DNA from: Kaistella polysaccharea | GTDB taxonomy: Bacteria; Bacteroidota; Bacteroidia; Flavobacteriales; Weeksellaceae | Assembly: GCF_020410745.1 (NCBI RefSeq) | Contig: NZ_CP084528.1 | Coordinates: 1,550,001-1,614,000, forward strand | Direction: 5' to 3' | Length of the DNA: 64,000 nt | In this document: positions 44,869 through 64,000 of the stretch, piece after piece | Layout: each line of letters begins with the position of its first letter | How positions within the stretch are numbered: the first letter of the stretch is position 1 | Made by a program: the position numbers and the translations under genes | The notes under the pieces: generated by a model | The model's input: only the letters and a program-made list of their open reading frames with translations | What the model was told of the DNA's origin: nothing | Database searches by the model: none

Positions 44869-45015
44869 CCGTACTAAAACAAAGTCACCGTTTCGGGTGC
44901 AATAATTCCAAAACCTTTACCTAAAACTGAATTCACGAAACCGTGAACAGGAATTCTTGTGATCAAAATGAACTGTGACTTATTAAAAATTTAAATCAAT
45001 TAAAATCAAACTCAA

Positions 45016-45261
45016 ATGGAAATCATAACAATTTCTAAAGAAGAACTATTCAGTGGAATCCGTACCCTTTTAGCAGAAGTTTTAGCAACACAAGTTAATG
45101 AGATACAACCAAAAGAACAACTCTTAACCAAGAAAGATCTTGCAACTCTCTTTCAAGTCGATATATCGACGATTGGAAGATGGATGAATGAAAACAAATT
45201 AAAACCATACTACCAAGGCGGTAAAGTTTATTTCAAAAACTCAGAATTACCTTTTAACTAA
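45016..45261 (+). CDS. Small helix-turn-helix protein (excisionase-like)
   Basis: This 81-residue protein ends with a MerR/excisionase-type helix-turn-helix (LLTKKDLATLFQVDISTIGR, WMNENKLKPYYQGGKVYF). It could be the excisionase or a regulator of the primase gene that follows after 16 bases. The 147-base gap before it has a short hairpin TTCACG-AAAC-CGTGAA at 44934-44949. Confidence 0.8.
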   Translation: MEIITISKEELFSGIRTLLAEVLATQVNEIQPKEQLLTKKDLATLFQVDISTIGRWMNENKLKPYYQGGKVYFKNSELPFN

Positions 45262-45277
45262 TTATAATATAGAAAAA

Positions 45278-47731
45278 ATGGAAAAGAAAATATATAAGTT
45301 GTCTATTACACAACAAACTTTCAACTATAGACTTGCTCAGAACGATTTTGGCCAAGTAAACAAATCACTAAGAAATACAGAAACAACAATAGAAGATTTT
45401 TCACAATTAATACTAAAACCAAACGCACACTCGTGGAGCGGTGGCATATTTTCTAATGGGATAATCGACAATAAAAGTTGGATTAGTTCTCAGGTTATCG
45501 GTTTAGATTTCGATACAGGAAAACAAACAATTGAGGAAGTTTATAAAATTTTTAATGACAATAATATATACCCCAACCTTACTTATAATACATTCCGAAA
45601 CACGCCTCAATGGAGAAGGTTTAGAGTAGTATTGTTTTTTGATGAGCCTATAAGAGAGAGGGGTTTGTATAGTAAAATAATGAATACGTTAGAGAAGTTA
45701 TTTTTAATTGATGTACAGTGTAAAAACTGTTCAAGAATATTTTATGGGGGAACTGACGTTAATATCACAAATCAATTCCCAATAATTTTAAAGAACTTTG
45801 TAGATTTCATTAATTTAACAATTATATCTACTGATAAGGGTTTAACAAGATCTGTTATTCCTTACGGAGCAATAGATGCTAATTTACGTGCAACTGTATA
45901 TTCTAATAATACAACTTACCCTTTTTTAGCACAACAAGATGATGCAGAAGAAGAAGATCAAGGAAGGTTTTTTTCTTTTTTACCTACTTCAATAATGGGG
46001 GGTCAAAAGATCAAATGGGATGTTGCAGAAGAACGAATAAAAATTTGGAGTGAGTTTCTGAGTGGTAGATGGTTGCATCAAAATGAACTTTTTGGTTTGG
46101 CGACCAATCTCATATATATTAAAGGAGGGATCAAGAGAATGAAAGAAACTATGCAGCATTATAATTCTATTGGTAAGACTGAGTATACCCCTAATAATTT
46201 CGCTGTAATGCCTTATGTAAAAAAGAAAAAGTACAACCCTGTTCCGATTTATAAATTCTCAACATATACCGAAGATGCCGAGATATATGATTTTATATCA
46301 GAGGTTAGTAACATACGAGGAAACATTACCGAACTGATAACTAAGGAGAAAACATCACTTTTAAATGCTCAAAAACAATTTAAAGAAAAGTTTACTGAAA
46401 CAATAAATGATACCGATTTTAACAAAACAACATTGATTTTGGTTCCTACTGCCCTGGGTAAAACTGAATTCTTAACGAAGGTTGAAAAAACAGCATGTGC
46501 TCTACCCACCCATGATTTGAAAGATGAAGTCAGAGAACGAATGAAGGTAAACCACACCTTTACCCCAAATACGATTAAATTTTCCGACGAGAATTTACAG
46601 AAAAGAATTGCTAATTTTTATCGGGTGGGATTACCAAAGAAAGCCATGGAATTAATTCATTCTATTGCAGAAAATAGGGGTGGTGGTTCTAACGATGATA
46701 TATTAACTGCTACTCAATATTTAGGACATTTAGCAAACTGTAGTGATATAAATTCGTCACAACTTACAACTCATAAAAGGTTGTTGAATTCCGATGATAT
46801 TTTACACCGAACTATAATATTTGACGAAGACCCACTTAACACACTTGTGGAAATTCAAAAGACAAAGATTGCAGAACTATCAAAGTTGTATTTTATGCAT
46901 CCACCAATGGAGGAAGTTATCAACTATTTAAACACTTTGGAAGATGGCGACCATGAACTTCCAAGTTTTAAATTAGATATTTCTAATCTAATAAAAGACT
47001 GTTATGACATCAGAGAAATTAATTCAAACGTATTTGATTTTTTTAACTGCAAACATTTCCTTTTAGATAATGGGACTATCCACTATATTATAAAAAAAGA
47101 ATTACCAATGGATAGAAAGAATATCATAATGTCAGCAACACTTTCACCGAATATATATCAAAAACTATATCCCAACATACAGTTTGATGTTTTAAATATA
47201 AAAAATGTCATACAAAAAGGTCGAGTAATACAATATACAGGTCGTTCCTGTTCGCGAACATCTCTCAAGAATTATGGAGCTGAAATAGGTGAACAGGTTG
47301 GTGATAAGAAAGTCATCACCTTTCAAAAATATCGTCATTTATTTAAAAATGCTGATGAACAGGCATACTTTGGAAACTGTTCAGGTTACGACCACCTGAA
47401 TGGGCAAGACATAGTTGTGGTTGGAACACCGCACCGATCAATGACTCAATATTTCCTTCTCGGAAAATTGATGGGGGTAGATTTCGATAGTAAAAACTCA
47501 CCAATGAAGTATCAGAAGGTTCAGTACAATGGGTTTGAGTTTATGTTTTACTGTTTCGATAATGAAGATTTGAGAAACATACAGTTGAACTTAATAGAAT
47601 CGGATTTAATCCAAGCAATCGGACGAGCAAGGACTCTTAGGAACGACAATGTAGTAGAAGTATATTCCAACCTTCCTTTGGATATTACGAATGAATTTCA
47701 CATCAAAAAACCAAAACAATCAGATATTTAA
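45278..47731 (+). CDS. Primase-like/SF2-helicase replication protein
   Basis: This 817-residue protein is probably the element's replication protein. The N-terminal third has a primase-polymerase-like acidic motif (GLDFDTG, residues 75-81) and FRVVLFFDEPI, resembling archaeo-eukaryotic primase domains of mobile elements. The C-terminal half is a superfamily 2 helicase: motif I VPTALGKTE (389-397), motif II DEDP (516-519), motif III SATLS (619-623) and motif VI QAIGRAR (779-785). The primase call is less secure than the helicase call. Confidence 0.72.
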   Translation: MEKKIYKLSITQQTFNYRLAQNDFGQVNKSLRNTETTIEDFSQLILKPNAHSWSGGIFSNGIIDNKSWISSQVIGLDFDTGKQTIEEVYKIFNDNNIYPNLTYNTFRNTPQWRRFRVVLFFDEPIRERGLYSKIMNTLEKLFLIDVQCKNCSRIFYGGTDVNITNQFPIILKNFVDFINLTIISTDKGLTRSVIPYGAIDANLRATVYSNNTTYPFLAQQDDAEEEDQGRFFSFLPTSIMGGQKIKWDVAEERIKIWSEFLSGRWLHQNELFGLATNLIYIKGGIKRMKETMQHYNSIGKTEYTPNNFAVMPYVKKKKYNPVPIYKFSTYTEDAEIYDFISEVSNIRGNITELITKEKTSLLNAQKQFKEKFTETINDTDFNKTTLILVPTALGKTEFLTKVEKTACALPTHDLKDEVRERMKVNHTFTPNTIKFSDENLQKRIANFYRVGLPKKAMELIHSIAENRGGGSNDDILTATQYLGHLANCSDINSSQLTTHKRLLNSDDILHRTIIFDEDPLNTLVEIQKTKIAELSKLYFMHPPMEEVINYLNTLEDGDHELPSFKLDISNLIKDCYDIREINSNVFDFFNCKHFLLDNGTIHYIIKKELPMDRKNIIMSATLSPNIYQKLYPNIQFDVLNIKNVIQKGRVIQYTGRSCSRTSLKNYGAEIGEQVGDKKVITFQKYRHLFKNADEQAYFGNCSGYDHLNGQDIVVVGTPHRSMTQYFLLGKLMGVDFDSKNSPMKYQKVQYNGFEFMFYCFDNEDLRNIQLNLIESDLIQAIGRARTLRNDNVVEVYSNLPLDITNEFHIKKPKQSDI

Positions 47732-47743
47732 TAGTACAAATGT

Positions 47744-47796
47744 GGGGTGCTAATGTACTTTAATGGTACAGAAGTTTACTTGTAGCACCCCTTTTT
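47744..47796 (+). terminator. Terminator after the primase-helicase
   Basis: GGGGTGCTA pairs with TAGCACCCC, enclosing an inner GTAC/GTAC hairpin, and is followed by five T's. It begins 13 bases past the stop. Confidence 0.75.
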
Positions 47797-48240
47797 CGTC
47801 GTAAAAGTTGAAACTACACTTTGATTGGAATGGAACAACCGAAATTCAAGCAAGTGTTTAGTAATGGGATGCGCCTTAGGTTTAGCTGAAGATTAAACCA
47901 TTTTGTTTTGCTTTAAAAACATAGACTTAGCCCTGAAAATGAGGGGATTTTTGATCGTTTTTCTACAGACGGGACGAAATTAAGTTGGTTTGCTTAAATC
48001 ACTAAATGATTTACTTCTAATGGTATTTCTCTCCCAACTTTGAAATGAATAGTAAATTGACAATTTTCTTGTATTTATCACTACTAAAATTTAACTGCAC
48101 CACTAATAGATTATAGTCTAAATTGAATGCGGTGAGAGCATTTTTACACACCTAACTAAAGTAGATAAGGCGTACCAAATAAGGATACCCTAAATTTTGC
48201 ACACTTGCCCTTTAGCGTTACCTTAGCCTAAAGAGTTTAT
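47797..48240. other. Non-coding gap before the resolvase
   Basis: No open frame here is convincing. A near-match to the -7 box (TACCTTAG, about 48220) with TTTTG about 20 bases upstream may drive the resolvase gene. A small CCC/GGG hairpin lies near 47932-47955. I see no second copy of the tRNA-Gln 3' end. Confidence 0.4.
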
Positions 48241-48831
48241 ATGAAAGCACGATATGTTAGAATTAGTACAGGAAATCAAAACGTAGCAAGGCAACTTGCA
48301 AAATCTTATCCTGATGAAAAGATATACATAGATATAATTTCGGGAACAGTTCCATTTGCCAAAAGACCTATGGGAGAAAAAGTAATTGAGGATATTAAAA
48401 ATAAAAACATTACATATCTAACAGTTGCTTCGATCGACCGTCTTGGAAGGAGCCTAATAAATATTTTATCCACCATTTCAGTTCTAAATGAAGCAAACAT
48501 TGTTCTAAAGGTTGACAATCTTGGTTTGGAAAGTTTAATTAATGGTAAACCAAATTCAGCCTTCAAATTGATTATTTCCGTCATGGCAAATATCGCTGAA
48601 ATGGAAAAAGACACTTTACTTGAAAGACAGGCACAGGGAATCGCCATAGCAAAAGCACAAGGAAAATATACAGGTCGTGAAAAAGGTTCTGTTGAGTCGG
48701 ATGATGTATTTTTAAGAAGGCACAATGAGGTGGTTAAAAATTTGAAAAAAGGGACTTCTATCCGAGATGTAGCAAAAATTTGTAAAGTAAGTCCTTCGAC
48801 TGTCCAAAAAGTGAAAAATAAAATTGGATAA
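48241..48831 (+). CDS. Serine recombinase (resolvase/invertase family)
   Basis: This 196-residue small serine recombinase has the nucleophile motif YVRISTGNQN, ASIDRLGRSL, and a C-terminal helix-turn-helix (SIRDVAKICKVSPSTVQKVK) for site binding. Its sites could be within the island, for resolution of replicated copies or for DNA inversion. No clear inverted site is visible next to it. Confidence 0.9.
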   Translation: MKARYVRISTGNQNVARQLAKSYPDEKIYIDIISGTVPFAKRPMGEKVIEDIKNKNITYLTVASIDRLGRSLINILSTISVLNEANIVLKVDNLGLESLINGKPNSAFKLIISVMANIAEMEKDTLLERQAQGIAIAKAQGKYTGREKGSVESDDVFLRRHNEVVKNLKKGTSIRDVAKICKVSPSTVQKVKNKIG

Positions 48832-49059
48832 CTTTATCCAACACAACTTATAAGCATAACAAAATTGAAAGGATCGTAGTATGATTTGAAAGGCAAATTT
48901 GGTGCGGGTAGATTAGATTTTAGAGCAGACCAAATCAAAAGAGATCTACAGTACCAAATATGATAACTGTTTTGGTGCAAAGTTTTATCAAGATAGAAGA
49001 CAACAATTTCAATGTTCTAAAAAAAATGCTATTTTAGTTCCACATCAAAATCATGCTCA

Positions 49060-49806
49060 ATGTTTGACGAAAAAACACAACAGGAATTATTATCCTATGT
49101 ATACATCCTTTTTGATCCAAGAGACAGCAAACCATTCTATGTCGGAAAAGGAACTCAAAATAGGGTGTTTGATCATTTGAATTGTGCATTAATTGATATA
49201 GATATTTCAACTGCAAAATATGATACTATAAGAGAAATTGTTAGTGAAGGAAAGATGATCAAACATATTATTGTTAGACATGGTCTTACCGAGAGTGAAG
49301 CATATAAGATAGAAGCATCATTGATCGACGCCTTTATATATTGTGGACTTTTACTTTCCAACCAAGTGGGTGGACATAACTCAATAGGAAAAGGATTAAT
49401 GACTACTGATGAACTAATCAGACTTTACAATGCGAAACCACTTCATGAAATTGGTTCAGACTGCATCATGATCAATATCAATCGGAAGTATCAACGAGGA
49501 AATAGCGTACAATCGATTCAAGATGCGACGAAAGAAACGTGGACTATACGAAAATCTCGACTGAACCAAATCAAGTTCGTTTTAAGTGAATATAGAGGCT
49601 TAATTGTGGAAGTTTTTGAGGTTATTAATTGGTACGAAAAAGAAAGAGGCTTTCTTCCAACATCTAAGAGATACGGAGAAACCAAAATTGGGTTTGGATT
49701 CAATATGAAAATAGCAAGTGAAGAAATTAGAAATCTGTATATAAACAAATCGGTTGCTCATACTAAAAAGAAAGGTGCGGCATCTGCAATTAGATATAAT
49801 TTATAG
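49060..49806 (+). CDS. GIY-YIG domain protein
   Basis: This 248-residue protein begins with a GIY-YIG nuclease-type domain: YVYILFDPRDSKPFYVGKGT, then NRVFDHL, and a glutamate in the EASLIDAF helix. This resembles the LEM-3-type subgroup. The C-terminal half (about residues 130-248) has no motif I recognise. The 228-base gap before it holds nothing recognised. It could be a nuclease of the element or a homing-type insertion. Confidence 0.78.
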   Translation: MFDEKTQQELLSYVYILFDPRDSKPFYVGKGTQNRVFDHLNCALIDIDISTAKYDTIREIVSEGKMIKHIIVRHGLTESEAYKIEASLIDAFIYCGLLLSNQVGGHNSIGKGLMTTDELIRLYNAKPLHEIGSDCIMININRKYQRGNSVQSIQDATKETWTIRKSRLNQIKFVLSEYRGLIVEVFEVINWYEKERGFLPTSKRYGETKIGFGFNMKIASEEIRNLYINKSVAHTKKKGAASAIRYNL

Positions 49807-50715: not shown

Positions 50716-51315
50716 TTAGTTACAGTCTGTTTCAACAAACTGCTTCAACTCGACCTCAGATATTTTAAGAACATCACTCCAAGATCTATAATCTAATTTA
50801 AAACCTGAGTTATCTTTCATTAATCGTAATACTGAAATAACATCTTGTTGGAAGTCTTCATCAATTAATAAAGGATATAATCTAAAGAAGTTTGGTTTGT
50901 CTTCTCTCAATCTTATCAGTGCCTCCCAAAAGGTATAAGAGTATTCAGATTTTCTTTGGGTCGGTGGGATATCTTCCTCTTCAAAACCCATGTCATTTAT
51001 CTCAAAATAATACCATGAGGTATAAGTTTCGTTATTATGAACTGAATAGATTGCAATCGAACCACCTTCAGCACCCAATTCAAAAACCTTTTGTTGATCT
51101 CTTAGTTTAGATAGTTGATAGTTTAGGAGAACTTTACTGTCCGTAATTGCGCCCTGACTGCTACCCATTACTTCAAAACATTTCGGACAATCCAATTCTA
51201 CGATTGCAGAATCCATGTAGATTTCACCTAACCCAAGATCAGAACCTTTTCCTTCCCATTCACACTTTTTACAGGTGTAATTTTTTGTTTTGTAATCATC
51301 AAGATCTATACGCAT
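50716..51315 (-). CDS. Zinc-ribbon protein downstream of brxL
   Basis: From the ATG at 51315 this 199-residue protein has an N-terminal zinc ribbon (Cys15, Cys18, Cys43, Cys46 in TCKKCEW and DCPKC). Its remaining alpha/beta domain includes GGSIAIYSVHNNETYTSWYY. The start at 51315 leaves a 16-base gap after brxL; a start at 51369 would overlap brxL. I do not know its function. Its position suggests a BREX accessory, or a passenger of the island. Confidence 0.65.
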   Translation of the reverse strand: MRIDLDDYKTKNYTCKKCEWEGKGSDLGLGEIYMDSAIVELDCPKCFEVMGSSQGAITDSKVLLNYQLSKLRDQQKVFELGAEGGSIAIYSVHNNETYTSWYYFEINDMGFEEEDIPPTQRKSEYSYTFWEALIRLREDKPNFFRLYPLLIDEDFQQDVISVLRLMKDNSGFKLDYRSWSDVLKISEVELKQFVETDCN

Positions 51316-51331: not shown

Positions 51332-53725
51332 TTAGCAATTTTTCTTCTCCAAAATATCCCCGAGAACAATTACAAAGTGACAGTTATCCGTTGTTAATTG
51401 GTCACAGTCCTCATCCTGCATTTCGATATAAACTTCTTTTACTTCCACAATCATTTGCGGTGCATCTTTGGTGTAACCAAGTTGGAATTTAACCGTCTCA
51501 TATTGTTTACAGTCAATAAACTCTCCATCGTCACATATTGCAAGACGACTGATGTTATGATCAGTAAAAGCACGATACTCTTCAGTTTTCGTTCCCTCGA
51601 GAATTTCATTAAACCATTGTTTGGCTAAAACCAAATACAATTGTTTACCACTCTTTTCTTTGGGAGCAGTACTTTTCATTTTTCCTATATTATCTTTTAC
51701 TCTTGGGGTGCTAACTTTTTTTTTTACAAATGTAACTTCACAAGCCTTACAGAGTCTTTTTTCCTGAACGTATTCATTGATATCATACCAACCACCTGTT
51801 TTCTGCCAAATGTCGAGACCTCGTCCTAATACGATCTTCCAACCGTTATTTAACTCGATGGAACGGTCATGAATAAAGTTGTCGAATTCATAAGTAAATA
51901 AGATCCCAACTGATTCTAAAGACATGGTCATCTGTTCGAAAGCATCTTTTGAATCCTGAACAAAATCTTCGTTGTTTATCGTTATAAGATGAACTTTCAC
52001 TTCTTCATCCTGAGTTTTTTTCTCAGAAATAAGTTTGAGTAGTTCCATCAAATTTCTCAGTTGGTAAGGAAGCCTTACGTAAGGATCTATGATTTGGATA
52101 TCCGTAGCACCAACTAAATAATTCCCGAATAAATTGTTGAAGGAAATCCCTGTTTGATTATCTCGAAGAATTTTCTGTCCTTCAACTAATTCTACTTTAA
52201 GTTGGATTTCAGAATTGAAATCACTTATCGATTCTGTATCATTGAATATTTCTGCTGACGGAGCGGTTGTAAGATGCTCCAACACTTCTAACGTCTCAAC
52301 GGTAACAACTTTCCCTGATCCTTTAACCGTATAACTAAAATCAACTTCCTCAAAGGTTTCATCCATCACTTGAAGTTGGAGTTTTACCCTTTTTCTGCAT
52401 TCTATCGCGAACTCTAAAAGTTCACGAACTTCCTCTTCAGTGTAAATTCCATGTGGATATATTACTTTCAGTAAACCACCTAATGTTTTGGTAACACCAT
52501 CTTTATCTCTTGTGGTAATGGTATTTGATAGTTCAAAATATTTACTGTACTCGTTGTTCCAATCTTCTTTACGTAACTCTTTCAGAATCTCTGCAAGATA
52601 ATCTACGATAAATCCATAGTTGGAAGTAAACATATCATTTCTTAATTTCTGAACTTCCCATCCTGGGAGATAGGCGTGGATTCTGTCCAAAAATGCGGTG
52701 TCATAATAATCTTTTGGAAGTGCATCAAACAGGTTGGAATGTTTTAACATATAGGAAACACTGTGATCTGTATTGCCAACAAAAACCATTGAAGCAGAAG
52801 CACCATAAACTTGAGTTCCACGGGAGAAACTCTTGTTTGCCATGTAATTCTTCATGATGTCGACCATACCACGGTCAACATTTTTAGATTTTCCTGCAAA
52901 TTCATCATAAGCCACCACATCCCAATAACCAACCAAACCAATTTCTCCTGAACTGTTATTTACGAATAGTTTTGCTTTGGTAACTTCACCTCCTGAGATC
53001 AAAATTCCATGGGGAGAAAGTTCTGAGAAAATATGAGATTTACCTGTTCCTTTCGGACCGAGTTCTATAAGGTTATAATTGTTTTCTACAAACGGAACAA
53101 GACGACTTAACTGTAATAGTTTAGATCTGTACGTAAATTCATCAGGATTTAAACCCATCGTTTGCAAAAGGATATCAACCCATTCTTCTTTGGTGAAATT
53201 TGATCTTGCTTCCTTGAACTCCGCTATGTTTATGTTCGAAATCTGAATTGGTTTCAAAGACTCAATGATCCAAGGAGTGGAACCTTTCTCATCAGTTGAG
53301 ACATAAGCCAAAGTTAGAATACACCAAACTCCATGAGTAAGAAGTTTCTGAAAATCAGTAACCACTTCTGCGGAAATCGGAACTGCATTTAGTCCCAAGT
53401 TCGCAAACGACGCCTCATACTGATCTTTCTTATCGTTCAGTTTAACCGAAACTTTATCAATAATTCGATGAGATCCTTTTTCACGAACCATCGATTTAAT
53501 AATTTGTGCTTCATCTCGGTGTACAAAGTGTTTAGAGATTACAGATTTCACCGTTTCTACTCCCTGTACGATGGTCTCGGGATCATCGGTTGCACAATAT
53601 TGACCAAGTAGATATTCCAACACATACATGGGTACAATGGCGTTTCCTTTTACCAATTTCGTAAGGTCTTTTCTTACAACCTTCCCAGGGAAATATTGGT
53701 TAAGTTTTATATCAAGTGCGTTCAT
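51332..53725 (-). CDS. brxL: BREX protein BrxL, with MIT_C and ASCH domains in place of Lon
   Basis: BrxL is an AAA+ protein needed for BREX phage resistance in type 1 systems. In this 797-residue copy the N-terminal region (1-200) and AAA+ core are typical: Walker A GPKGTGKS (223-230), Walker B VVAYDEF (270-276), and FLDRIHAYLPGW (345-356). After about residue 480 it departs from canonical BrxL, which has a Lon-like protease domain. Residues about 510-670 match the MITD1 C-terminal phospholipase-D-like domain (IIDPYVRLPYQL, then IHDRSIELNNGWK and GRGLDIW). Residues about 694-794 look like an ASCH domain (LVLAKQWFNEILEGTKTEEY). Confidence 0.88.
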   Translation of the reverse strand: MNALDIKLNQYFPGKVVRKDLTKLVKGNAIVPMYVLEYLLGQYCATDDPETIVQGVETVKSVISKHFVHRDEAQIIKSMVREKGSHRIIDKVSVKLNDKKDQYEASFANLGLNAVPISAEVVTDFQKLLTHGVWCILTLAYVSTDEKGSTPWIIESLKPIQISNINIAEFKEARSNFTKEEWVDILLQTMGLNPDEFTYRSKLLQLSRLVPFVENNYNLIELGPKGTGKSHIFSELSPHGILISGGEVTKAKLFVNNSSGEIGLVGYWDVVAYDEFAGKSKNVDRGMVDIMKNYMANKSFSRGTQVYGASASMVFVGNTDHSVSYMLKHSNLFDALPKDYYDTAFLDRIHAYLPGWEVQKLRNDMFTSNYGFIVDYLAEILKELRKEDWNNEYSKYFELSNTITTRDKDGVTKTLGGLLKVIYPHGIYTEEEVRELLEFAIECRKRVKLQLQVMDETFEEVDFSYTVKGSGKVVTVETLEVLEHLTTAPSAEIFNDTESISDFNSEIQLKVELVEGQKILRDNQTGISFNNLFGNYLVGATDIQIIDPYVRLPYQLRNLMELLKLISEKKTQDEEVKVHLITINNEDFVQDSKDAFEQMTMSLESVGILFTYEFDNFIHDRSIELNNGWKIVLGRGLDIWQKTGGWYDINEYVQEKRLCKACEVTFVKKKVSTPRVKDNIGKMKSTAPKEKSGKQLYLVLAKQWFNEILEGTKTEEYRAFTDHNISRLAICDDGEFIDCKQYETVKFQLGYTKDAPQMIVEVKEVYIEMQDEDCDQLTTDNCHFVIVLGDILEKKNC

Positions 53726-53736
53726 AGTTTTATCTT

Positions 53737-56223
53737 TTAATCATCGAAGTCGTTGGTAAATGAAATGTTTAAAGTGTAATAAAACTCTTTATATTCTTTC
53801 CACTTGGTAGAATTCTCCACAGGTTCTTCTAAAACCAACCGAACTGTTTGGTTCTTATATTTTCCACTTGCCTTAGATGACAGTTGGAAACGGTATTTTA
53901 CCTCTTTTTGTCGTTCGCTACCTTCTTCGATATCGAATTTAAATTTAAACTGATCACTTAATTCTTCACCATCATCTGCCACAATTACCGCACGGATAAA
54001 TCTCGGTAACATCTGTTCAGTGACCAATTCTTTTTGCATAAAAGAAACTGCCAAAATATTAGTCGTGATCTTATCAGTTGATTTTATGATATCAATTTCG
54101 ACGTTACTTGTCGTAGAAACATCTTTAACCGAAACTTTAATTACAGGAATTACGATTTCCTGCAAAGTAGAACCTCCATGTATAAATCTCGATCCTGAAC
54201 CCTTTACTCTTAATCTATTAATAGACTTAGGAATTAACACATCAATTCCTGATTGTAAACCTAAATCTTCACCATTAAATTTCTTGGTTGCATTGTCATT
54301 AATCAAATTCTTCCCGATGATAAATCTCCTGTTTATGCTCCATAGTTCACCTGAATGATCTGATCTACTATAATCACTTTCATCAATTTTATTATCTTGA
54401 TAGATAAATCCATGATCGGAAGTAATAATCATATTTTTTCCATTCATGGCATTAACTTTCCTCGTCATTTTCATGAGAAACGCAATTTCTTCCTCCACCG
54501 CATCAAACCCCTTTCTTTCCGTAACTTTATCGTCCCCCGTATTGTCAATGCGATTGTGATAAATATAGATAAGATCGTACTGCTTTACAAATTCCCTTCC
54601 TTCTTTTGCAGAATTCATACTCATAAAATCTTCAGCTCCAATTGCAGTTGTACGAGAGCCTGCGTTAGTCTGCAGAACTTTTGTTCTGCCTTGCACACCT
54701 TCCGTTGACATTCCGTCCGCCAACACAAAATCTGATCCTTCCTTAATGGTTAAATTATTATGTGGCAGTAACGAAGCCATGCCAAGTTTGGTATAAGACG
54801 GTAAACTTGAAACCATTGTTGATATAGTGGCTTCAAATCTATTTTCCGCCTGTAATCTTTTGGTAAATTCTACACCACATTCGTATCTAAAGGCATCAGA
54901 GATAATGACGAATAATCTGCGTTGCTTTTCAAATGATGATTTTATGTAGGTATTGTAAAAGTCCGACTGACTATTTTGTGGTTCCCACTTGGTCGTTTTA
55001 TCGATTACTTTCTGCCAATTATTTCCATAAACCATCAACCAATCGTTGGAATATACTTTGTCAATCTTCTCCGATAATTCAGATAGTATTTTATTCTGAT
55101 TCGTTTTTCTGTAACTCCAAACAAACTTCCTGTACGTTTGATCGATCTCATACAAAACATCGGAGTAATTAGTCACTCCTTCGTTGAAACTTTCGTATTT
55201 CGTATTACCGTATTTACGGATTAATGAGATGAGTTGGGAAGCATAAAGCAAACACAGATAGAAATTTTCATACTCCTGAAACCAAAACTTATTTTCTCTT
55301 TCCTTCACCATCTGTCCAACTCTTTCCACAGAAATATCTTCTTCAGAAATCAGATGCACCAACTCATGAATAATCTTCAGGTCAATCAATTTATAGGTGT
55401 CATCACTCAGAATATCTTCGATCACCGCTGAATTTAGTTTTGCTTCAACATCGGTATCGGTGGAAATCTTATCGGAAATCTTACCAAAATATTCTCTGTA
55501 CTGAAAAGTATCTTTCCATAGAGAAAGTAAGAGTCGGGATTCTTTGGAGAGTTCAGTTTTCTTCCCCAAAGAAAAATTGTTGGAGAATACCTCCAAAAGA
55601 AAATCATAGATCGTTGGGGTTTCATTGAAATACTTGTACTTTCTTTCAATCTCTTTCCAAAAGAATTCTGTTAGATTGTAACGTTCAAGTTCCTTTTCAT
55701 ATCGATCACTGTTATCAATATATGCTGAACCGAAAGTGTGAACAAAGGTTGGAAGACTAATGTTTTCTGTCCCGAAAACCACTGCTAACATTTTATATCG
55801 AATGGTCAAGAAATCATCATCTTTATCTATGTATTCTTTTAATTTATTTCGTCTGTCTTTTGCTTTGAAGAACTCAAGATGTTCACCCACCAATTCTTTG
55901 AGATGATAACTCAATCCCATTTCCTGTAAGAACATGGCTTCCTGATCAGTTTGGAAAATGTAGTTTGCTAACTCTAAATCCAATAACCAATTCTCTTCAT
56001 TCAATGGTTTTTTATCATTGAAGTATAATAAGAACTGATCCGTTGGAAACTGCTTAACCACGATGTGTTTTACTTCAAACTCATTTCCCTGCACGTGAAT
56101 TTTTTTCACGTTTTCAAGTGACAGTTCGTTGTACTGATCCATGAGTTCTTGGTTCTCATCGTACCAAAAAATAAGTCGGTGTTTCCCGAAAAGTTTATGG
56201 AGTGCCTCTTCTATCTTGTTCAT
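53737..56223 (-). CDS. pglZ: BREX alkaline-phosphatase-superfamily protein PglZ
   Basis: PglZ is the alkaline-phosphatase-fold protein of BREX; its exact reaction is not established. This 828-residue copy shows the metal-binding motifs SDAFRYE (442-448), YIYHNRIDNTGD (553-564) and TSDHGF (601-606) in the expected order, with a helical N-terminal half. Its start overlaps the pglX end by 4 bases, and brxL begins 11 bases after it. Confidence 0.95.
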   Translation of the reverse strand: MNKIEEALHKLFGKHRLIFWYDENQELMDQYNELSLENVKKIHVQGNEFEVKHIVVKQFPTDQFLLYFNDKKPLNEENWLLDLELANYIFQTDQEAMFLQEMGLSYHLKELVGEHLEFFKAKDRRNKLKEYIDKDDDFLTIRYKMLAVVFGTENISLPTFVHTFGSAYIDNSDRYEKELERYNLTEFFWKEIERKYKYFNETPTIYDFLLEVFSNNFSLGKKTELSKESRLLLSLWKDTFQYREYFGKISDKISTDTDVEAKLNSAVIEDILSDDTYKLIDLKIIHELVHLISEEDISVERVGQMVKERENKFWFQEYENFYLCLLYASQLISLIRKYGNTKYESFNEGVTNYSDVLYEIDQTYRKFVWSYRKTNQNKILSELSEKIDKVYSNDWLMVYGNNWQKVIDKTTKWEPQNSQSDFYNTYIKSSFEKQRRLFVIISDAFRYECGVEFTKRLQAENRFEATISTMVSSLPSYTKLGMASLLPHNNLTIKEGSDFVLADGMSTEGVQGRTKVLQTNAGSRTTAIGAEDFMSMNSAKEGREFVKQYDLIYIYHNRIDNTGDDKVTERKGFDAVEEEIAFLMKMTRKVNAMNGKNMIITSDHGFIYQDNKIDESDYSRSDHSGELWSINRRFIIGKNLINDNATKKFNGEDLGLQSGIDVLIPKSINRLRVKGSGSRFIHGGSTLQEIVIPVIKVSVKDVSTTSNVEIDIIKSTDKITTNILAVSFMQKELVTEQMLPRFIRAVIVADDGEELSDQFKFKFDIEEGSERQKEVKYRFQLSSKASGKYKNQTVRLVLEEPVENSTKWKEYKEFYYTLNISFTNDFDD

Positions 56224-59200
56224 CGTATTTCTGCTGTACTAATCCAATCAAATTCTCTCACCTTTTTCTTGGTCTTGGCATCATTTAAACCTGCAACATC
56301 TTTGATTGCTTTACCAAACTTATTGTAGTTTACCAATACACCATCATCTAAATCAATGCTAATTCTTTCGATAGCAAGGGGACGTAATATTTCTCTTTCG
56401 TAATCTACCAATTCCATGATGACCAATTTCAGGCGGTCTTTTTCTTTCTGTGCTTTGGTTTGCTCGGCGGAAGATCCTGTTACGATGATGTGATCTAAGT
56501 TTTCAATTTTGGTATTGAGTTTTTCTCGGTACTGAACCAAATAGCCGTTCAATATTTTATTTAATGAATCCTGGGTGTATCGGTGCATGTAGATCAAAAC
56601 GTTGAACGATCCTTTTGGGGAAGAGAACATCCAATAGATGGGTCTTTTCTTGTATCGTTTGATGTGGTCTTCATAGAAATCTTTGATAAAATATTTACGA
56701 ATATCTTTGCCCAAAGACTCTTCTAAAAAGGCAAGATTTTTATCGAAATATTGCACCCCGAAACTTGCTTTTAAAAATGCATAGAAACGGTTGACGATAT
56801 CATCCTCAAACCATTCATCATCTAAGACAGGGATAATATTATCTGCATCAGGAACAAAGGTTAAATGACCTTTTTCTTTACCAACTTTCTCTATATAGTC
56901 TTCTAAAGTTTCTCCCTGATTGGCGAGAATTAACCCTTCTTGATCTAAAGAATACCGACCAAACATGCAACCCACCGCATAAGAAATGAACTGTGCCATT
57001 ATCTCTTTGGCTTGAAATACCAACTCACCATCTACTATTTTGGTCTCTTCTTTTAGAATGGTGATATCTTCGAAGGTAACCTCAGGTGTCAACTCATCTT
57101 GTAAACCATAAATCTCTATAAACTGACGGTTAAGTTCTTCCTCATTTTTATGTAACTGTGTGAATTTGTTTTTCCAATACAATTGGTAGAGATCGTAGGT
57201 TTCTTCTAATTCTTGAGATTTTAAACGAATGAATTCATTTTGTTGGAAGTCCCAGGAAGTTTCGTGGGAATTCCATTCTTGTTTTGAGATAGAAATCAAT
57301 GATAAAACTTTACTATCAATATCAACTTGGTTCGAAAATATAATAGGTAATTTAGCAATATCGCCACTTAGCACTGATAATGTAGGCGAAAACACTTCTA
57401 AAATTTTTGCACTTATCTTTGAATTTAAGAAGCCTAATATATAGTTTAGGTCGCTTTCTTTCGGAAATGCCGACGGTCCCGAGGAAGAGAATATTACACC
57501 TTCACCAAAATACCTAAAAGTTGGAATGCCTGAAGTTATTCCTCCCCACGTTATTCCTTTTTTGAAATATAAATTTTCACTTCTTATCTCCTTAGTATAA
57601 CTTCCCCCTTTATACTTTTTTACTATATATCTTTTGAGTTCATCACCATTATTAGACCAATTAATTACAAAGTGATTCATACCGTACCATTTGCATTTAC
57701 CTCCACCTTTATTGATGATATTCCACTTTTTGTTTTCGGTTAATGAAATGTCTTTAGAATTACCCTCAAAATTTGTTCGCTCCCGTGACATCTCAAACCA
57801 CAATTTTATAAATCTTGTATCATCCAAAGTAACAAGGCCTTTCCTTGGATTGGCTATTTCTTTTAATTTGTCAGATGAATGAAGTTTATCAATAAAGTTT
57901 TGATTCAACCAATATCCAATTGGACTCCCAGGAATTTTTTTAAAGTCGTTTTGATTGGCGGTATAAGAAATTTGTAATCCTTTTTCATCCACAAGTTCTA
58001 CCACAGACGAAATTACGTCACCTTCACGATATTTATCAAAATTTATTTTTATTGTATTGTCTTGTTTTACTTTAAGAAAAATATCTCTTATATCTTCAGG
58101 ATATAGATGTTGAAAATTTCTTTTATGTAGTTTAAAATAATTTGAATCTCTAAATAATATTTGATTTTGAATAATAAATGCAGTTGAACCCCAATCTATT
58201 CCAAATATTCCACGACCCATATGAAGTAAAGAATCAATATATTTTTCTTTAATTATTTTTACTCTCAATTTTTCAAAAGATGATAAAAAAAGCCAAGATG
58301 GAAGGTTAATCATGCCTAAAATACCTTTAGGTAAAAGCATATTTAATCCCGCTTCCATAAAACAAGTCATTAAATCCGCTTTACTATCAGGATAATTTTT
58401 CTTTACAAATTCACCCAAAACTTTGTTCATGTTTCCACCACCCATGTAAGGAGGGTTATCAACAATACAATGGTATTTTTTACTTAATGGTAAAAGTTGA
58501 TTAACTGCCAATTTCAATCTTTCCAAAAGTTCTGCCTGAAAGACATCGGCTTTAGGATAAACTTTTTCTATTTGTAATAAAGCATTTTCGAGAAACTCCT
58601 CAGAAGATTTTGCTATCATTAAAGAACCGTAATTGGTTGCCTGTTCCATTACTTCAAGATCATACTGAAATTTAGATGATTTATCTAAATAAGTTAAAAC
58701 CAAAACACTCATCAGTTCCTCTTTGGTAAAAGAAACATCCTGATATTGAAGAATATTTGGTTCAACTTCTTTCTTGAAAAATCTACGGTGGTAACTTCTT
58801 GCTTTCATCATGAGTGCCATTCCCGCTAATTGGGAAGCACGTTCATCGATTTCAAAACCGTGTAAATTTTTGGTAATAATCAGTTCAGGGATTTCGGTTG
58901 GGTTGTAACCTTCCTCTTCATAGATTTTATAAAGCAAATCAAAACCGTACACTAAAATATGTCCACTTCCACACGCCTGATCCAATAAGGTCAATTCTTC
59001 TATGGAATTTAAATTTAAATAATCCTCAGAAGTTACAGACGGTGACTCAATAAAATACGGCATGTGTTCCCGCAGTTTGGAATTGGGCTTGTTCTGTAAC
59101 CACAATTTCCCAACCGTATTTTGTACCATATATTCTACGATCCATCGTGGAGTAAACAACTGTGTTGCGGCAGGAATATCTTCTTTCTCAACGGCACTCT

Positions 59201-59846
59201 TTGAAGCGAAAACTTCATCTTTCCTTTCAGAAATATAAAACTGATACAACCAACCAATGATTTCAACTTCCGCACAATCTTCGGCAGACATTCCATCCCT
59301 AAAATCCTGAATAACGGATAATTCAGACGTTAAATCATCAGGAAGAAGGAGTTCGGTGTAATCGTTAATCCGTTCAAAAAGGAAAGGAAATACGGAACTT
59401 AAATGATTACAGGAAGCGATTAAAAGATTTCGGTATGCTTCATTCTGAGAATCATTACTTGGGATTTTCCCATCTAAAATATCAAAAATCTTTTGACGGT
59501 CTAATTTCAGATCATCAGAAATATGACCTCTTTTTGCTTCGTCCAAAATCTCAGGTAAAGTATAACCATCATTGGGAGTTACGACTTTCGTTCCGATCGG
59601 TTGGTAATCGTTCACATCCATAAAACGCAACGCCATCAACCTGTTGAACCAAGTGTATGACACCCGATCCACGATTTCCTGTTTGGTGGATTTAGACAGG
59701 ATTTCTTTTAATTTACTGACCTGTTCACTCTTTTCCCGAAGTTCAGGGGAATCTGTATTCAGAACATACTCCAACTTGGAACTGATTTGTTCCATGAGTT
59801 TGAGTCGGGTTTGTTGAGCGAACTTTTTTAAAATATTAGTATTCAT
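56220..59846 (-). CDS. pglX: BREX adenine-specific DNA methyltransferase PglX
   Basis: PglX methylates host DNA at an adenine so that BREX can tell self from phage. The 1208-residue protein has SAM-binding motif DQACGSGH (289-296) and the catalytic NPPY motif (464-467), then a long target-recognition region. Length is typical of type 1 PglX. It overlaps pglZ by 4 bases and follows brxC by 3 bases. Confidence 0.96.
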   Translation of the reverse strand: MNTNILKKFAQQTRLKLMEQISSKLEYVLNTDSPELREKSEQVSKLKEILSKSTKQEIVDRVSYTWFNRLMALRFMDVNDYQPIGTKVVTPNDGYTLPEILDEAKRGHISDDLKLDRQKIFDILDGKIPSNDSQNEAYRNLLIASCNHLSSVFPFLFERINDYTELLLPDDLTSELSVIQDFRDGMSAEDCAEVEIIGWLYQFYISERKDEVFASKSAVEKEDIPAATQLFTPRWIVEYMVQNTVGKLWLQNKPNSKLREHMPYFIESPSVTSEDYLNLNSIEELTLLDQACGSGHILVYGFDLLYKIYEEEGYNPTEIPELIITKNLHGFEIDERASQLAGMALMMKARSYHRRFFKKEVEPNILQYQDVSFTKEELMSVLVLTYLDKSSKFQYDLEVMEQATNYGSLMIAKSSEEFLENALLQIEKVYPKADVFQAELLERLKLAVNQLLPLSKKYHCIVDNPPYMGGGNMNKVLGEFVKKNYPDSKADLMTCFMEAGLNMLLPKGILGMINLPSWLFLSSFEKLRVKIIKEKYIDSLLHMGRGIFGIDWGSTAFIIQNQILFRDSNYFKLHKRNFQHLYPEDIRDIFLKVKQDNTIKINFDKYREGDVISSVVELVDEKGLQISYTANQNDFKKIPGSPIGYWLNQNFIDKLHSSDKLKEIANPRKGLVTLDDTRFIKLWFEMSRERTNFEGNSKDISLTENKKWNIINKGGGKCKWYGMNHFVINWSNNGDELKRYIVKKYKGGSYTKEIRSENLYFKKGITWGGITSGIPTFRYFGEGVIFSSSGPSAFPKESDLNYILGFLNSKISAKILEVFSPTLSVLSGDIAKLPIIFSNQVDIDSKVLSLISISKQEWNSHETSWDFQQNEFIRLKSQELEETYDLYQLYWKNKFTQLHKNEEELNRQFIEIYGLQDELTPEVTFEDITILKEETKIVDGELVFQAKEIMAQFISYAVGCMFGRYSLDQEGLILANQGETLEDYIEKVGKEKGHLTFVPDADNIIPVLDDEWFEDDIVNRFYAFLKASFGVQYFDKNLAFLEESLGKDIRKYFIKDFYEDHIKRYKKRPIYWMFSSPKGSFNVLIYMHRYTQDSLNKILNGYLVQYREKLNTKIENLDHIIVTGSSAEQTKAQKEKDRLKLVIMELVDYEREILRPLAIERISIDLDDGVLVNYNKFGKAIKDVAGLNDAKTKKKVREFDWISTAEIR

Positions 59847-59849
59847 GCC

Positions 59850-62800
59850 TTACAGGGAAATTCGTTTGTTTTCTTTGATTTTGTCCGCAAACGCTTTTCT
59901 AATGGCTTCTACGTATTCGTTTACATCATCTTCCGTTTTCAGTTCCGTTTTATTAAAGGTAGGTTTGATGGAAGATCCTCTTATGTATTGAATGTGTTTG
60001 ATGACAGGTTTAGGTTGATCATCGTCATCCGTGCCGTCAGGATCAGGAGTAGGCTCCGGCGTTGCAAGGCGAATCATTTCGTTTAACTGCTTGGTGTACA
60101 GTTCATCTGATACGTAAACAACCGTATTTCTCATATTTCCAATATACCGCTGTCCTTTCAATTTGTTAATTTCATCTTCAAAAGGAGAAATAATTGCGTT
60201 CTGATCTGAATCTGAAAGACGGCTGAATTCCTCTTTTGATTTTATAATGGTTATAACCTCTTCCGTTTTTTGAATGGCTTTATTACGCTCTTCATTAATC
60301 TTATCCTGTAACTTTGTGGTGATGTTCTCGTGTAAAACTTTTGCTTCTCTTACCGTATTCCCTTTGTAAGGTGCTCGGTCTTCCATAACACCTTTTATTT
60401 CCGCAAACTCATTTCCCTCCACATATTCCACGTTGGATAAATCACTTTTAAGGAAGTTTGTAATTTTCTCATAGATCTTCAGTTGATCACCATTGATAAA
60501 CTTCTTGATTGGATCTAAGATATTTTCTTTGGTATCCAACAGTTCGTCTTCAAAATCCTTAAGATTGGTTAAATAATAACTGTATTCATTATTTTTTAAT
60601 TTATATAATTGATCTCTGAAATCAGATAGCACCTCAACAAATGGAAGTTCAGTTTTTCGCACCACCAAATTGGAAACATCGTTATACATTTCACCCAATT
60701 TCTCTTTAAATTCATTGGCAACTTCCTTGGCCTCAATCTTGGAAGGGTTTTCATCAAACGCTTCGGAGTAGGTTTGTTTTAGTTTGATAACCAATTTGGG
60801 ATCGATCACTGCTTGAGGTTCTAACATCACATTGGCGTACGATGCTGAATTCAGTAACGCCTGAACCACTTCATTATCTTCAAGTTGATTAGAATCTTTT
60901 TTTAATTCAACTTTCCCTCTTTTGTAGAGTTGGGCAACCAAAGTCCAAACTGCATTCTGATACCATCCGTATGGTTTTTTAGCGAAATGGTTTTTTAAAT
61001 CATTCAAAGAAGTACGATCTGACTGTCCTTTTCTTCTGTTGATAATATTTAATATTTCAGACTCACCTTCGGTCATGGTGTTATCATCGGTGGTAAACAA
61101 ACTGTCTTTTCCACCAAAAATAACTGACTTAAAAGTATCCTCAGAGTATTGAACATTCCCCAACATTCTTAAATTGGTATAGACCGTTTTAACCAAATTT
61201 TGGAAAGAATTCACCACCATTGTTTTGCCGTCGGCTACATTTCCTGTTTGGATTTTTTCCCCGTTCATGTAAACCGAAGAATCTGAAAGGAGTTTGTTAC
61301 CGAGGAGAACTAAGTTTCTTCTTCTGTCCACATTTTGGATTGCTTTCTCCTGAAGAATTCTCTTTACTTCTACTTTGTTGGAAGTGGATTGATTTTGTTT
61401 GCTGTACGTATCTGTCCGCAAATACATTTTCAAATCCTTCATAAAAGTTACGTTGGACGGCAGAACAATTTTCATCCCCGTGCTTCCCATCGTTTGTCCT
61501 TGGATCAGGACTGTTTTCGTATAATCAGAATAATTTTCTGTAATTATTTCTATGGCAAGTTCCTTTTCTCTGCCGAGCAAAATGCCGTCGATCTTACTTG
61601 TGAACTCATAATCTTGTTTAGTATCAAAGTATTTGATTTTACTGTCTCGAATTATTTCATCAAAGAAAATTTCCTTTAATAGTTGGGTTACTTTCTGTTC
61701 TTCGACATCGGTGTTTTTAATTTCCTGTTCAATGTCTTTTTCTTCATCGGTTAGGAACTCATACACATCACCGTTTCTCTGAACGTAGCTTTGATTCTCT
61801 AAAAGGTTTAGGGCTTCATCGATATCTTTTTCATGATTTTTAAGATCTATATCAATTTTATTGATCATTAATACTGAAATATTTCTTTTGGTTGTTTTAA
61901 AATTGCCGTAATACTTTACAAGGAATAAGGTTTTCAGAACTTTAATGGCAAAGTCGTTATCAATATTTCTTTCAGCCAATTGAATGGTATTTTGGATTTG
62001 CCCTTTCAGTTCGTTTCGTAAACCATCAAACATCAAATCAAAACTCACCAAAGTATTTTCCCCTTTCTCTTCAATATTCTGAATCACTTGTTGAAAAACG
62101 CCCAACATACTTCTTTCCCCGACTGAAGCATGTTTTCCCTGAAATGCATTATGCATTGCTAAAGCAATCCTACATTGTTGGAACAGATCAAACTGATACG
62201 GTATGAAGGGTAATTTATTGGCGAAATCGGTTTCCCCTTTAAATCCTTTGAACTGTACTCCTGAATCTGAGAAACTCAATAAAGTGTCTAAATGCGCACT
62301 TTCTTTTTTGAAGGTGTTCGCAAGATGTTGATGTGCTTCGGGTTTCTTTTTTAATAACCTTTTCTCAATAACTTCATCCACGTTTGCAGAAGTTAACGGT
62401 ACTTTGATTCTAAAACGAGCCTGAATACGGGAGAAGTCATTCTGTTGACTTCTATTCATATCACCTACAATCTTCTCCATATCCTCCTGAGAGGTCACCA
62501 AAATCCATGAATGACCGTGTGTCACCGTCGTAAGAGATTCCGCAATGGTTTGAAGATTCAACATCAATTTGGTATTCTCTGAAATGAACTGACCTACTTC
62601 ATCAACGAAGAAATTTAATCTAAAACCTGATGCTTTAGTTTTAACGTATTCATTTACTTTTTGAGCGAAGTCTTCGATGGATTGTTTCTGTTTACTTTCT
62701 AAGACATCCAAGATATCATCGTAATCGGACGGATTGGTGTCAAAAATTCCGCCTAATACTTCTGATATAGATTTGGTTATCCTTGGGTCAAAGTAATCGA

Positions 62801-63377
62801 TTCTTGCTGTGTTCCAATCACTTCCAAGATTTTCTTCGAATTTAGATCTGAACTCATCATACTTTCCTTGCTTATCTAACCACATCTCAAATTCTGCCAC
62901 GTGAGGTTGGAAACCGTAATACCCAACGTGGTCATAAAACACCTTATAAAATACTTTTAAAATAGCGGAAGGATCATCTTTGGTGGTGATCTGTGCTTGT
63001 TGATCAATGTTAAAAAGAATTGATTCTGATGGAATACGAGTTGAGGATACAATGTCACCTTTAAGCAAAACATCATCTTCTATTTTCTCTGCGAATAGTT
63101 CACCACATTTATATCCATCAACTTCCTTATTTTCTAAAACATAAGAAAGGATCTTCAATAAGTGAGATTTACCACTTCCGAAGAAACCTGAAATCCACAC
63201 TCCGTTTGAACCACTATAACTTTTATAATTACTGAACAGTTCACCGATCTTTTTTGCAATTTCTTTGGTAATTACGTATTCCGCAACCTCTGTTGAAATG
63301 TGATCTCTGTCATCTGCCTTGATTACCGTTTCAATATTACGGTTGATGTCTTTCTCGAAAAAGTTTTTAATGATCAT
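59850..63377 (-). CDS. brxC: BREX P-loop protein BrxC
   Basis: BrxC is a large ATPase-like core protein of BREX, required for resistance. This 1175-residue copy has Walker A GFFGSGKS (64-71) and a Walker B-like segment FRLNFFVDEVGQFIS. The C-terminal half is coiled-coil-rich. Its start overlaps the brxB end by 4 bases. Confidence 0.95.
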   Translation of the reverse strand: MIIKNFFEKDINRNIETVIKADDRDHISTEVAEYVITKEIAKKIGELFSNYKSYSGSNGVWISGFFGSGKSHLLKILSYVLENKEVDGYKCGELFAEKIEDDVLLKGDIVSSTRIPSESILFNIDQQAQITTKDDPSAILKVFYKVFYDHVGYYGFQPHVAEFEMWLDKQGKYDEFRSKFEENLGSDWNTARIDYFDPRITKSISEVLGGIFDTNPSDYDDILDVLESKQKQSIEDFAQKVNEYVKTKASGFRLNFFVDEVGQFISENTKLMLNLQTIAESLTTVTHGHSWILVTSQEDMEKIVGDMNRSQQNDFSRIQARFRIKVPLTSANVDEVIEKRLLKKKPEAHQHLANTFKKESAHLDTLLSFSDSGVQFKGFKGETDFANKLPFIPYQFDLFQQCRIALAMHNAFQGKHASVGERSMLGVFQQVIQNIEEKGENTLVSFDLMFDGLRNELKGQIQNTIQLAERNIDNDFAIKVLKTLFLVKYYGNFKTTKRNISVLMINKIDIDLKNHEKDIDEALNLLENQSYVQRNGDVYEFLTDEEKDIEQEIKNTDVEEQKVTQLLKEIFFDEIIRDSKIKYFDTKQDYEFTSKIDGILLGREKELAIEIITENYSDYTKTVLIQGQTMGSTGMKIVLPSNVTFMKDLKMYLRTDTYSKQNQSTSNKVEVKRILQEKAIQNVDRRRNLVLLGNKLLSDSSVYMNGEKIQTGNVADGKTMVVNSFQNLVKTVYTNLRMLGNVQYSEDTFKSVIFGGKDSLFTTDDNTMTEGESEILNIINRRKGQSDRTSLNDLKNHFAKKPYGWYQNAVWTLVAQLYKRGKVELKKDSNQLEDNEVVQALLNSASYANVMLEPQAVIDPKLVIKLKQTYSEAFDENPSKIEAKEVANEFKEKLGEMYNDVSNLVVRKTELPFVEVLSDFRDQLYKLKNNEYSYYLTNLKDFEDELLDTKENILDPIKKFINGDQLKIYEKITNFLKSDLSNVEYVEGNEFAEIKGVMEDRAPYKGNTVREAKVLHENITTKLQDKINEERNKAIQKTEEVITIIKSKEEFSRLSDSDQNAIISPFEDEINKLKGQRYIGNMRNTVVYVSDELYTKQLNEMIRLATPEPTPDPDGTDDDDQPKPVIKHIQYIRGSSIKPTFNKTELKTEDDVNEYVEAIRKAFADKIKENKRISL

Positions 63378-63958
63378 GGTTTTGCGTTGATTAAGTCAAT
63401 GTTAAATGCTCGGTAATAATTGTCGTCTTTCATGGCACCGAAAAGATTCAGTGATGTTCCATTATAATCCCCAGGGAAGAAAATAACGGTTGGTGAATCT
63501 TTGGCGATATTCTGTAAATTGTTTAAAATCGTGTGAGATCTGATGTAAGGAAACACCAACCCAATGCCCGTCAAAAAATAAACACTCGATGGATTTTGGT
63601 CAATGATTTCTTTAATTTTGGGAGTCAGCACCTGATGGATGTTCAAGGTGGATTGTAACGCATTCAGAAACTTATCCTTCTTTTTCACCTTCTCAATTTC
63701 AAACATTCTTTCTACACCACCTTTGGACTCCAAAATATCACATACAATGTCGTAGAGATTCAATTCTAAAACACTTACTCCCGAGTTCTCCAATTTATTT
63801 TTTAGACCCTTTATTGAGTCACTTACTTCGGTCTCCATTGCAGGATCGTAAGCACTTATAAAAAAAGGAATTTCACCACCCAATGACTCTTTCTTTAGAA
63901 AGTTCGGTGATGAAATGATGTTGTATAAATGTGTAAATTTCTTTTTAATATCTTCCAT
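63374..63958 (-). CDS. brxB: BREX protein BrxB (DUF1788)
   Basis: BrxB is a small core protein of BREX with unknown biochemistry. From the ATG at 63956-63958 the protein is 194 residues (MEDIKKKFTHLYNII), the normal size, with IPFFISAYDPAMETEV and the DUF1788 region FLTGIGLVFPYIRSHTIL. An in-frame TTG at 63985 would add nine residues. brxA should lie just beyond the right edge of the window. Confidence 0.93.
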   Translation of the reverse strand: MEDIKKKFTHLYNIISSPNFLKKESLGGEIPFFISAYDPAMETEVSDSIKGLKNKLENSGVSVLELNLYDIVCDILESKGGVERMFEIEKVKKKDKFLNALQSTLNIHQVLTPKIKEIIDQNPSSVYFLTGIGLVFPYIRSHTILNNLQNIAKDSPTVIFFPGDYNGTSLNLFGAMKDDNYYRAFNIDLINAKP

Positions 63959-64000
63959 TTTTAAATTATACTCTTTTAATATCAATATCAGAAATCAAAA

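Follow-up and report, generated by a model that had tools for sequence, protein, structure and literature searches.

A 64,000-nucleotide stretch of Kaistella polysaccharea DNA (contig NZ_CP084528.1, positions 1,550,001 to 1,614,000; hereafter the window) carries a type 1 bacteriophage exclusion (BREX) locus whose brxL gene encodes a 797-amino-acid protein. In this protein the N-terminal and AAA+ ATPase parts of BrxL are followed by MIT_C, a domain with a phospholipase D (PLD)-like fold, and by an ASCH-fold tail. We propose, with a probability of about 0.58, that this BrxL serves BREX as an effector acting on DNA, and that slippage in a tract of A at the MIT_C/ASCH junction switches its phage-type ASCH tail. 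The original prediction, made from the sequence alone, recognized the domain order and missed that the tail belongs to a phage-type ASCH family and is joined at a slippage-prone tract. It is the tail and its junction that are new, the MIT_C replacement being mostly known already. No report of an ASCH-tailed BrxL or of a tract-switched BrxL tail was found in the literature searched, which comprised open-licence papers.

The A tract at the junction

The junction reads GTA AAA AAA AAA GTT, and among the unfused close relatives listed BrxL mostly stops directly after CE-[VI]-T-x-x-K. As in a phase-variable gene, a long homopolymer lies at the position that decides the frame. The tract is the sole run of at least ten A in the window, where shuffled sequences gave 9.5 (standard deviation 4.4); the genome holds 18 runs of exactly ten A on both strands together. 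Across the coding parts of the window and 31 other loci, 7 of the 82 occurrences of KKK were encoded as nine A, against 36.9 expected from codon use; this count includes the junction sites and, with loci L014 and L015 overlapping the window, some cases were counted twice. Runs of at least ten A in the same coding sequence fell at three distinct sites, all of them this junction, in the window, in Kaistella treverensis (G094, protein P0005), which is of the same genus, and in Chryseobacterium taklimakanense (G027, protein P0010). Locus L015 repeats the site of the window, and all other loci except L014 were chosen for their BrxL or ASCH genes, so this test of enrichment is biased. Read as DNA, the tract has ten A in the window and G094 and 11 in G027. 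A scan of junctions in 37 loci, which required an exact GRGLD and a stop within 220 residues, returned 25 lines (12 loci gave none) and 22 distinct sites, with at least ten A in two (G094 and G027) and nine or fewer in the other 20.

The G027 gene is in the split form, with KKKIDDPN as the BrxL C-terminus and ASCH in a separate 126-amino-acid open reading frame (ORF) that shares 17 bases with the 3' end of brxL. Protein records of this lineage end in IDDPN at 674 residues (P0010 and P0011), in KKKN at 670 residues (P0015 to P0017) or in KKKKIDDPN at 675 residues (P0012), while P0007 reads through into ASCH and has 796 residues. The cores of these proteins are 99.4 to 100% identical. P0007 and P0016 share a 100.0% identical core of about 665 residues yet are fused and unfused, respectively, and the 100.0% identical cores of P0010 and P0012 carry different tails. 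When the G027 sequence was recomputed with 11, 12, 13 or 14 A, products of 674, 670, 796 and 675 residues were obtained, matching the recorded lengths and tails; only the 13-A form is fused. Judged by the protein records, near-identical relatives have products that vary in line with tract length, as would be expected of a phase-variable gene.

A second lineage comprises the fused P0001 to P0006 and the unfused P0008 and P0009, both of 675 residues, which are 87 to 97% and 86 to 93% identical to the fused proteins, respectively. With nine A, the window gene would give a product of this same length. P0122 (136 residues) and P0127 (126 residues; 99% identical to the P0007 tail) look like separate ASCH frames, one per lineage.

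The main rival to a slippage switch is homopolymer sequencing error. The tail could be a plain, fixed fusion, with tract differences arising from sequencing or assembly errors or from neutral frameshifts of no regulatory use. This explanation, which we regard as unlikely, draws on the error-prone nature of homopolymers: such errors could mimic variation in tract length. Junction DNA was read for the window, G094 and G027 only, the other tract lengths being deduced from proteins, and at the DNA level the gene is fused in both genomes of this genus that carry it. A fixed fusion fits poorly with four tract lengths among otherwise near-identical records, with the split of G027 at the DNA level and with retention of the tract in 3 of 3 junctions read, although nine-A KKK is rarer than expected.

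In BREX, phase variation of brxX/pglX, by homopolymers or otherwise, has been described (PMC6326788, PMC9122589). A homopolymer may switch a BREX gene in both settings; the methyltransferase is affected there, whereas only an extra domain of BrxL is affected here. If the switch is real, phase variation in defence effectors could affect one domain only, supplied by a phage-type gene, and the variation would concern the recognition module of an effector, not the on/off state of a methyltransferase. The target of BrxL is still debated in BREX research, and a pair of BrxL proteins with and without the tail, from the same operon, allows a direct test.

The ASCH tail and its standalone relatives

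An ASCH-like domain had been predicted after MIT_C, and fold and motif agree. The tail has an ASCH/PUA-like fold and the G-x-K-x-x-E-x-R sequence, which we take to be the ASCH motif, and belongs to the phage family phrog_625. The Pfam match itself, at residues 702-767, is sub-threshold (PF04266, 20.0 bits against a cut-off of 21.2); PF04266 was matched by 21 of 24 relatives at E values up to 0.1. The phrog_625 protein of Riemerella phage vB_RanS_CRP6 is of the same family and about 70% identical to the tail, but there it is the product of a standalone phage gene; six Riemerella phages have this standalone protein. In viral contigs, a scan with the single tail sequence detected no relative, and one with an alignment detected 41 loci. 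When the PDB was searched with the ASCH profile, four of the seven rows obtained were ubiquitins and the remaining three were proteins such as AlkD2; no row bore the name ASCH. Structural rows for the ASCH fold include the modified-base readers YTH, THYN1 and VcaM4I.

Fusion of the tail is rare. It was found in 2 of 320 genomes of the family (G000 and G094). A phylum sample of 395 genomes, which we infer to be Bacteroidota, contained 24 with a strong MIT_C match, and one of these has the fusion, with open-frame length as the criterion. Among the best 120 of 1,260 database proteins matching residues 471-797, six carry the tail, at 796 to 797 residues. In a tree of ASCH sequences, nine BREX-linked rows and three rows of unknown context form a 12-row group (support 96/88). 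Since the BREX-linked rows nest among standalone rows, the tail was likely captured from a standalone ASCH gene; the tree points to no single origin.

In phages CRP6 and GDF21 and in 7 of 20 genome loci (L125, L128, L129, L130, L131, L139 and L141), the standalone gene sits between a NinG-like gene and genes for 3'-phosphoadenosine-5'-phosphosulfate (PAPS)-reductase-like and ParB-like proteins, ahead of terminase or portal genes; the gene labels for the two phages come mostly from the GDF21 annotation, and L132 was covered in part. In genome G168 (L031), a standalone ASCH gene and an ORF with a HIRAN domain (by Pfam) follow a different BREX locus, which has an unfused MIT_C BrxL.

The tail, which may read a feature of nucleic acid, perhaps a modified base, could alternatively be an enzyme, an RNase or N4-acyl-cytosine hydrolase acting as a second effector on BrxL. 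We think this rather improbable: the same fold also serves the modified-base readers named above. More doubtful still is a role as a decoy that senses or blocks standalone phage ASCH proteins directed at BREX or at the DNA that BREX targets. The identity to the protein of six Riemerella phages, the repeated NinG, PAPS-reductase-like and ParB-like setting and the standalone gene adjoining BREX in G168 would fit a decoy; contact between the phage protein and BREX is conjectural, however, and the phage gene may have another task.

Several further observations concern the standalone genes. The pairing of a standalone ASCH gene with a nearby HIRAN-like ORF, as in L031, recurs in L124, L126 and L127; in L031 and L124 it is beside BREX. 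Downstream of its first standalone ASCH gene, G027 carries another (L124:10688-11020; 110 residues, 70% identical to the tail). In L032 and L127, putative type I restriction-modification genes were recognized by eye and by mutual BLAST. An ASCH domain 33 to 36% identical to the tail opens a protein of about 810 residues in L034 (4981-7419), L035, L138 and L142; the L034 protein matches DEAD/ResIII helicases and adjoins an ORF with T5orf172/MUG113 matches, and L142 has in addition an MmeI-type methyltransferase.

MIT_C in the position of the Lon-like domain

As had been predicted, the protein begins as an ordinary BrxL. Besides the two Pfam domains (Table 1), it scores 605.5 bits against 329.3 for TIGR02688, and the PADLOC BrxL model (698 positions) spans residues 1-670. 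Among PDB sequences, BrxL was matched by residues 4-466 and human MITD1 by residues 519-669. Acinetobacter BrxL (8emc, 8emh; PMC10164562) shares the N-terminal and AAA+ parts, with 44% identity over approximately 345 aligned residues, but its C-terminal domain is an inactive Lon-like domain. The full-length predicted structure was poor in the AAA+ part (mean predicted local distance difference test score 67.6).

The proposal that a MITD1-like domain starts near residue 510 likewise held. The MIT_C match (PF16565) scores over the curated cut-off, and the region has the MITD1 fold. The C-terminal domain of human MITD1 (2ymb, 4a5z) has the same PLD-like fold and motif residues in common, whereas MITD1 as a whole is a eukaryotic MIT-domain protein without BrxL parts and has a role in ESCRT, the endosomal sorting complex required for transport. 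A Lon fold for residues 510-670 was rejected on the Pfam MIT_C match, the sequence and structure matches to MITD1 and the shortfall of TIGR02653, the canonical Lon-like BrxL form, which stayed below its cut-off and was matched over profile positions 3-470 of 675 only. No Lon was present among the 50 structural neighbours listed for the region, an absence that alone is not proof.

The catalytic motif of PLD/HKD nucleases is H-x-K-x4-D. H619 and R621 are invariant in 56 of 56 sequences, K of the motif being replaced by R; the third position is D in 32, N in 23 and S in 1. P0006, dropped by the identity filter, lies outside these 56. Substitution of the Lon-like domain by an "HKD-endoDNase" with the same K-to-R change has been reported in 1,030 instances among 2,913 type 1 BREX taxa with BrxL (PMC12839542, 2026), a paper that cites an earlier report of the form (Li et al. 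2025, Menshen). The published proteins share with ours the BrxL core, the type 1 setting, a retained PglZ and, where the Lon-like domain would be, a PLD-like domain with H-x-R. They differ in having D at the third motif position, which is N in the window protein, and the portions of PMC12839542 covered mention neither an ASCH tail nor an A tract.

The name MIT_C is not used in the main text of that paper. Because position, motif and frequency coincide, the HKD-endoDNase of BrxL is probably MIT_C, which would tie it to a domain of eukaryotic MITD1 and would make replacement of the Lon-like domain by MIT_C a common, published variant. In the phylum sample, 23 of 41 genomes passing the BrxL_ATPase cut-off had a strong MIT_C match (E < 1e-30), a figure obtained as the intersection of the BrxL_ATPase and MIT_C lists. 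Novelty of MIT_C in BrxL was therefore discarded, given the 1,030 published instances, the 1,260 database matches and the PADLOC model; of the replacement put forward as new in the original prediction, the MIT_C part falls if HKD-endoDNase is MIT_C, and the ASCH tail stands. Its contrast with a protease also falls, because the canonical Lon-like domain lacks the Ser-Lys catalytic dyad (PMC12839542) and, in Acinetobacter BrxL, the C-terminal domain mediates tail-to-tail contact of two rings (PMC10164562).

MIT_C had further been suggested to contact membranes, and its likeness to MITD1 would permit work at membranes or on lipids. We found no support for this, and consider it very improbable: the structural neighbours of the region include PLD nucleases, the remainder of the protein is BrxL, of a DNA-binding AAA+ ATPase family, other proteins combine MIT_C with AbiEii, helix-turn-helix (HTH) or Sel1 parts, and the published reading is an endoDNase (PMC12839542).

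On the proposed mechanism, the window BrxL would be the restriction-side effector of type 1 BREX, its AAA+ core loading on DNA like BrxL in solved structures. MIT_C may occupy the position of the Lon-like domain at the ring-ring contact and act on DNA, whether by PLD-type nuclease activity or by binding DNA as an inactive dimer. Two products would result from slippage during replication or transcription, a BrxL of ordinary length (about 670 to 675 residues) and an ASCH-tailed one of about 797. Bacterial transcription slips at runs of A (PMC1088944), so one gene may give both products even at a fixed tract length. The population would then hold two BrxL forms with the DNA-loading part intact. 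Tentatively, and with rather less confidence than in the switch itself, we suggest that a clonal population thereby has two BREX forms with differing targets or triggers, slippage adding a phage-derived ASCH sensor or decoy to an intact BrxL or removing it.

Several findings weigh against a DNA-acting, tract-switched effector. N626 at the third PLD position makes catalysis doubtful, and the fused P0006 lacks the HDR residues, with FIEPS where the others have IHDRS. phrog_625 is a family of unknown function, and the BREX-linked ASCH rows do not group as a single clade: the tree, from only 109 columns, needs 3 changes, and 0% of 200 bootstrap trees have one. Two forms within one clone were not seen, and the ASCH frame after unfused proteins other than that of G027 is assumed.

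MIT_C occurs in other proteins as well. An AbiEii nucleotidyltransferase fusion of 371 residues (L013:817-1932, G094:C7; P0151) is a second defence-type MIT_C protein, and a 201-amino-acid ORF overlapping the start of its gene by 4 bases looks by eye like its antitoxin. P0166, of 255 residues, joins a Cro-type HTH to MIT_C. In G450, a genome with no BrxL ATPase match, MIT_C is followed by eleven matched Sel1 repeats (L165:805-3414), in a frame that extends beyond the end of the locus.

The BREX locus and neighbouring genes

The type 1 BREX core is complete: brxA, brxB, brxC, pglX, pglZ and brxL are contiguous on the minus strand (Table 1), and we assume that the six genes share one transcript.

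Table 1. Features of brxL and of the BREX locus, in window positions unless a locus is named
Feature	Position	Strand	Basis
brxL, 797 aa: BrxL_N, AAA+ ATPase, MIT_C (PLD-like), ASCH	51332..53725	-	ORF; Pfam, NCBIfam and PADLOC matches
BrxL_N, residues 10-141	53303..53698	-	PF20442, E 5.9e-48
BrxL AAA+ ATPase, residues 152-464	52334..53272	-	PF13337, E 1.7e-132
MIT_C PLD-like domain, residues 526-668; H619-x-R621-x4-N626; GRGLD 634-638	51722..52150	-	Pfam, E 3.3e-41
A10 tract, MIT_C/ASCH join at ordinary BrxL C-terminus	51716..51725	-	Homopolymer run count
ASCH-fold tail, residues 691-797; G-x-K-x-x-E-x-R motif	51335..51655	-	phrog_625, E 6.3e-15
199-aa ORF immediately 3' of brxL, with CxxC pairs	50716..51315	-	ORF
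pglZ (BREX-1 type A)	53737..56223	-	TIGR02687, E 7.4e-206
pglX (BREX-1 adenine methyltransferase)	56220..59846	-	NF033452, 1263 bits
brxC	59850..63377	-	NF033441, 1047 bits
brxB (longest ORF)	63374..63985	-	PF08747 (E 2.5e-42) and PF08849 (E 2.9e-36) cover brxB + brxA
brxA, next after brxB, extends beyond window end	L014:3967-4563	-	Pfam; read from locus L014

The 199-amino-acid ORF had no Pfam match at E 0.01. A homologue (57.7% identity) likewise lies 3' of brxL in G094, and short ORFs near the ASCH genes of L138 and L142 resemble the start of the window ORF. Beside the BREX genes, positions 43120-49806 on the plus strand encode an N6/N4 methyltransferase, an 817-amino-acid ORF without a Pfam match, a serine resolvase and a GIY-YIG ORF, and these genes may be part of the same island.
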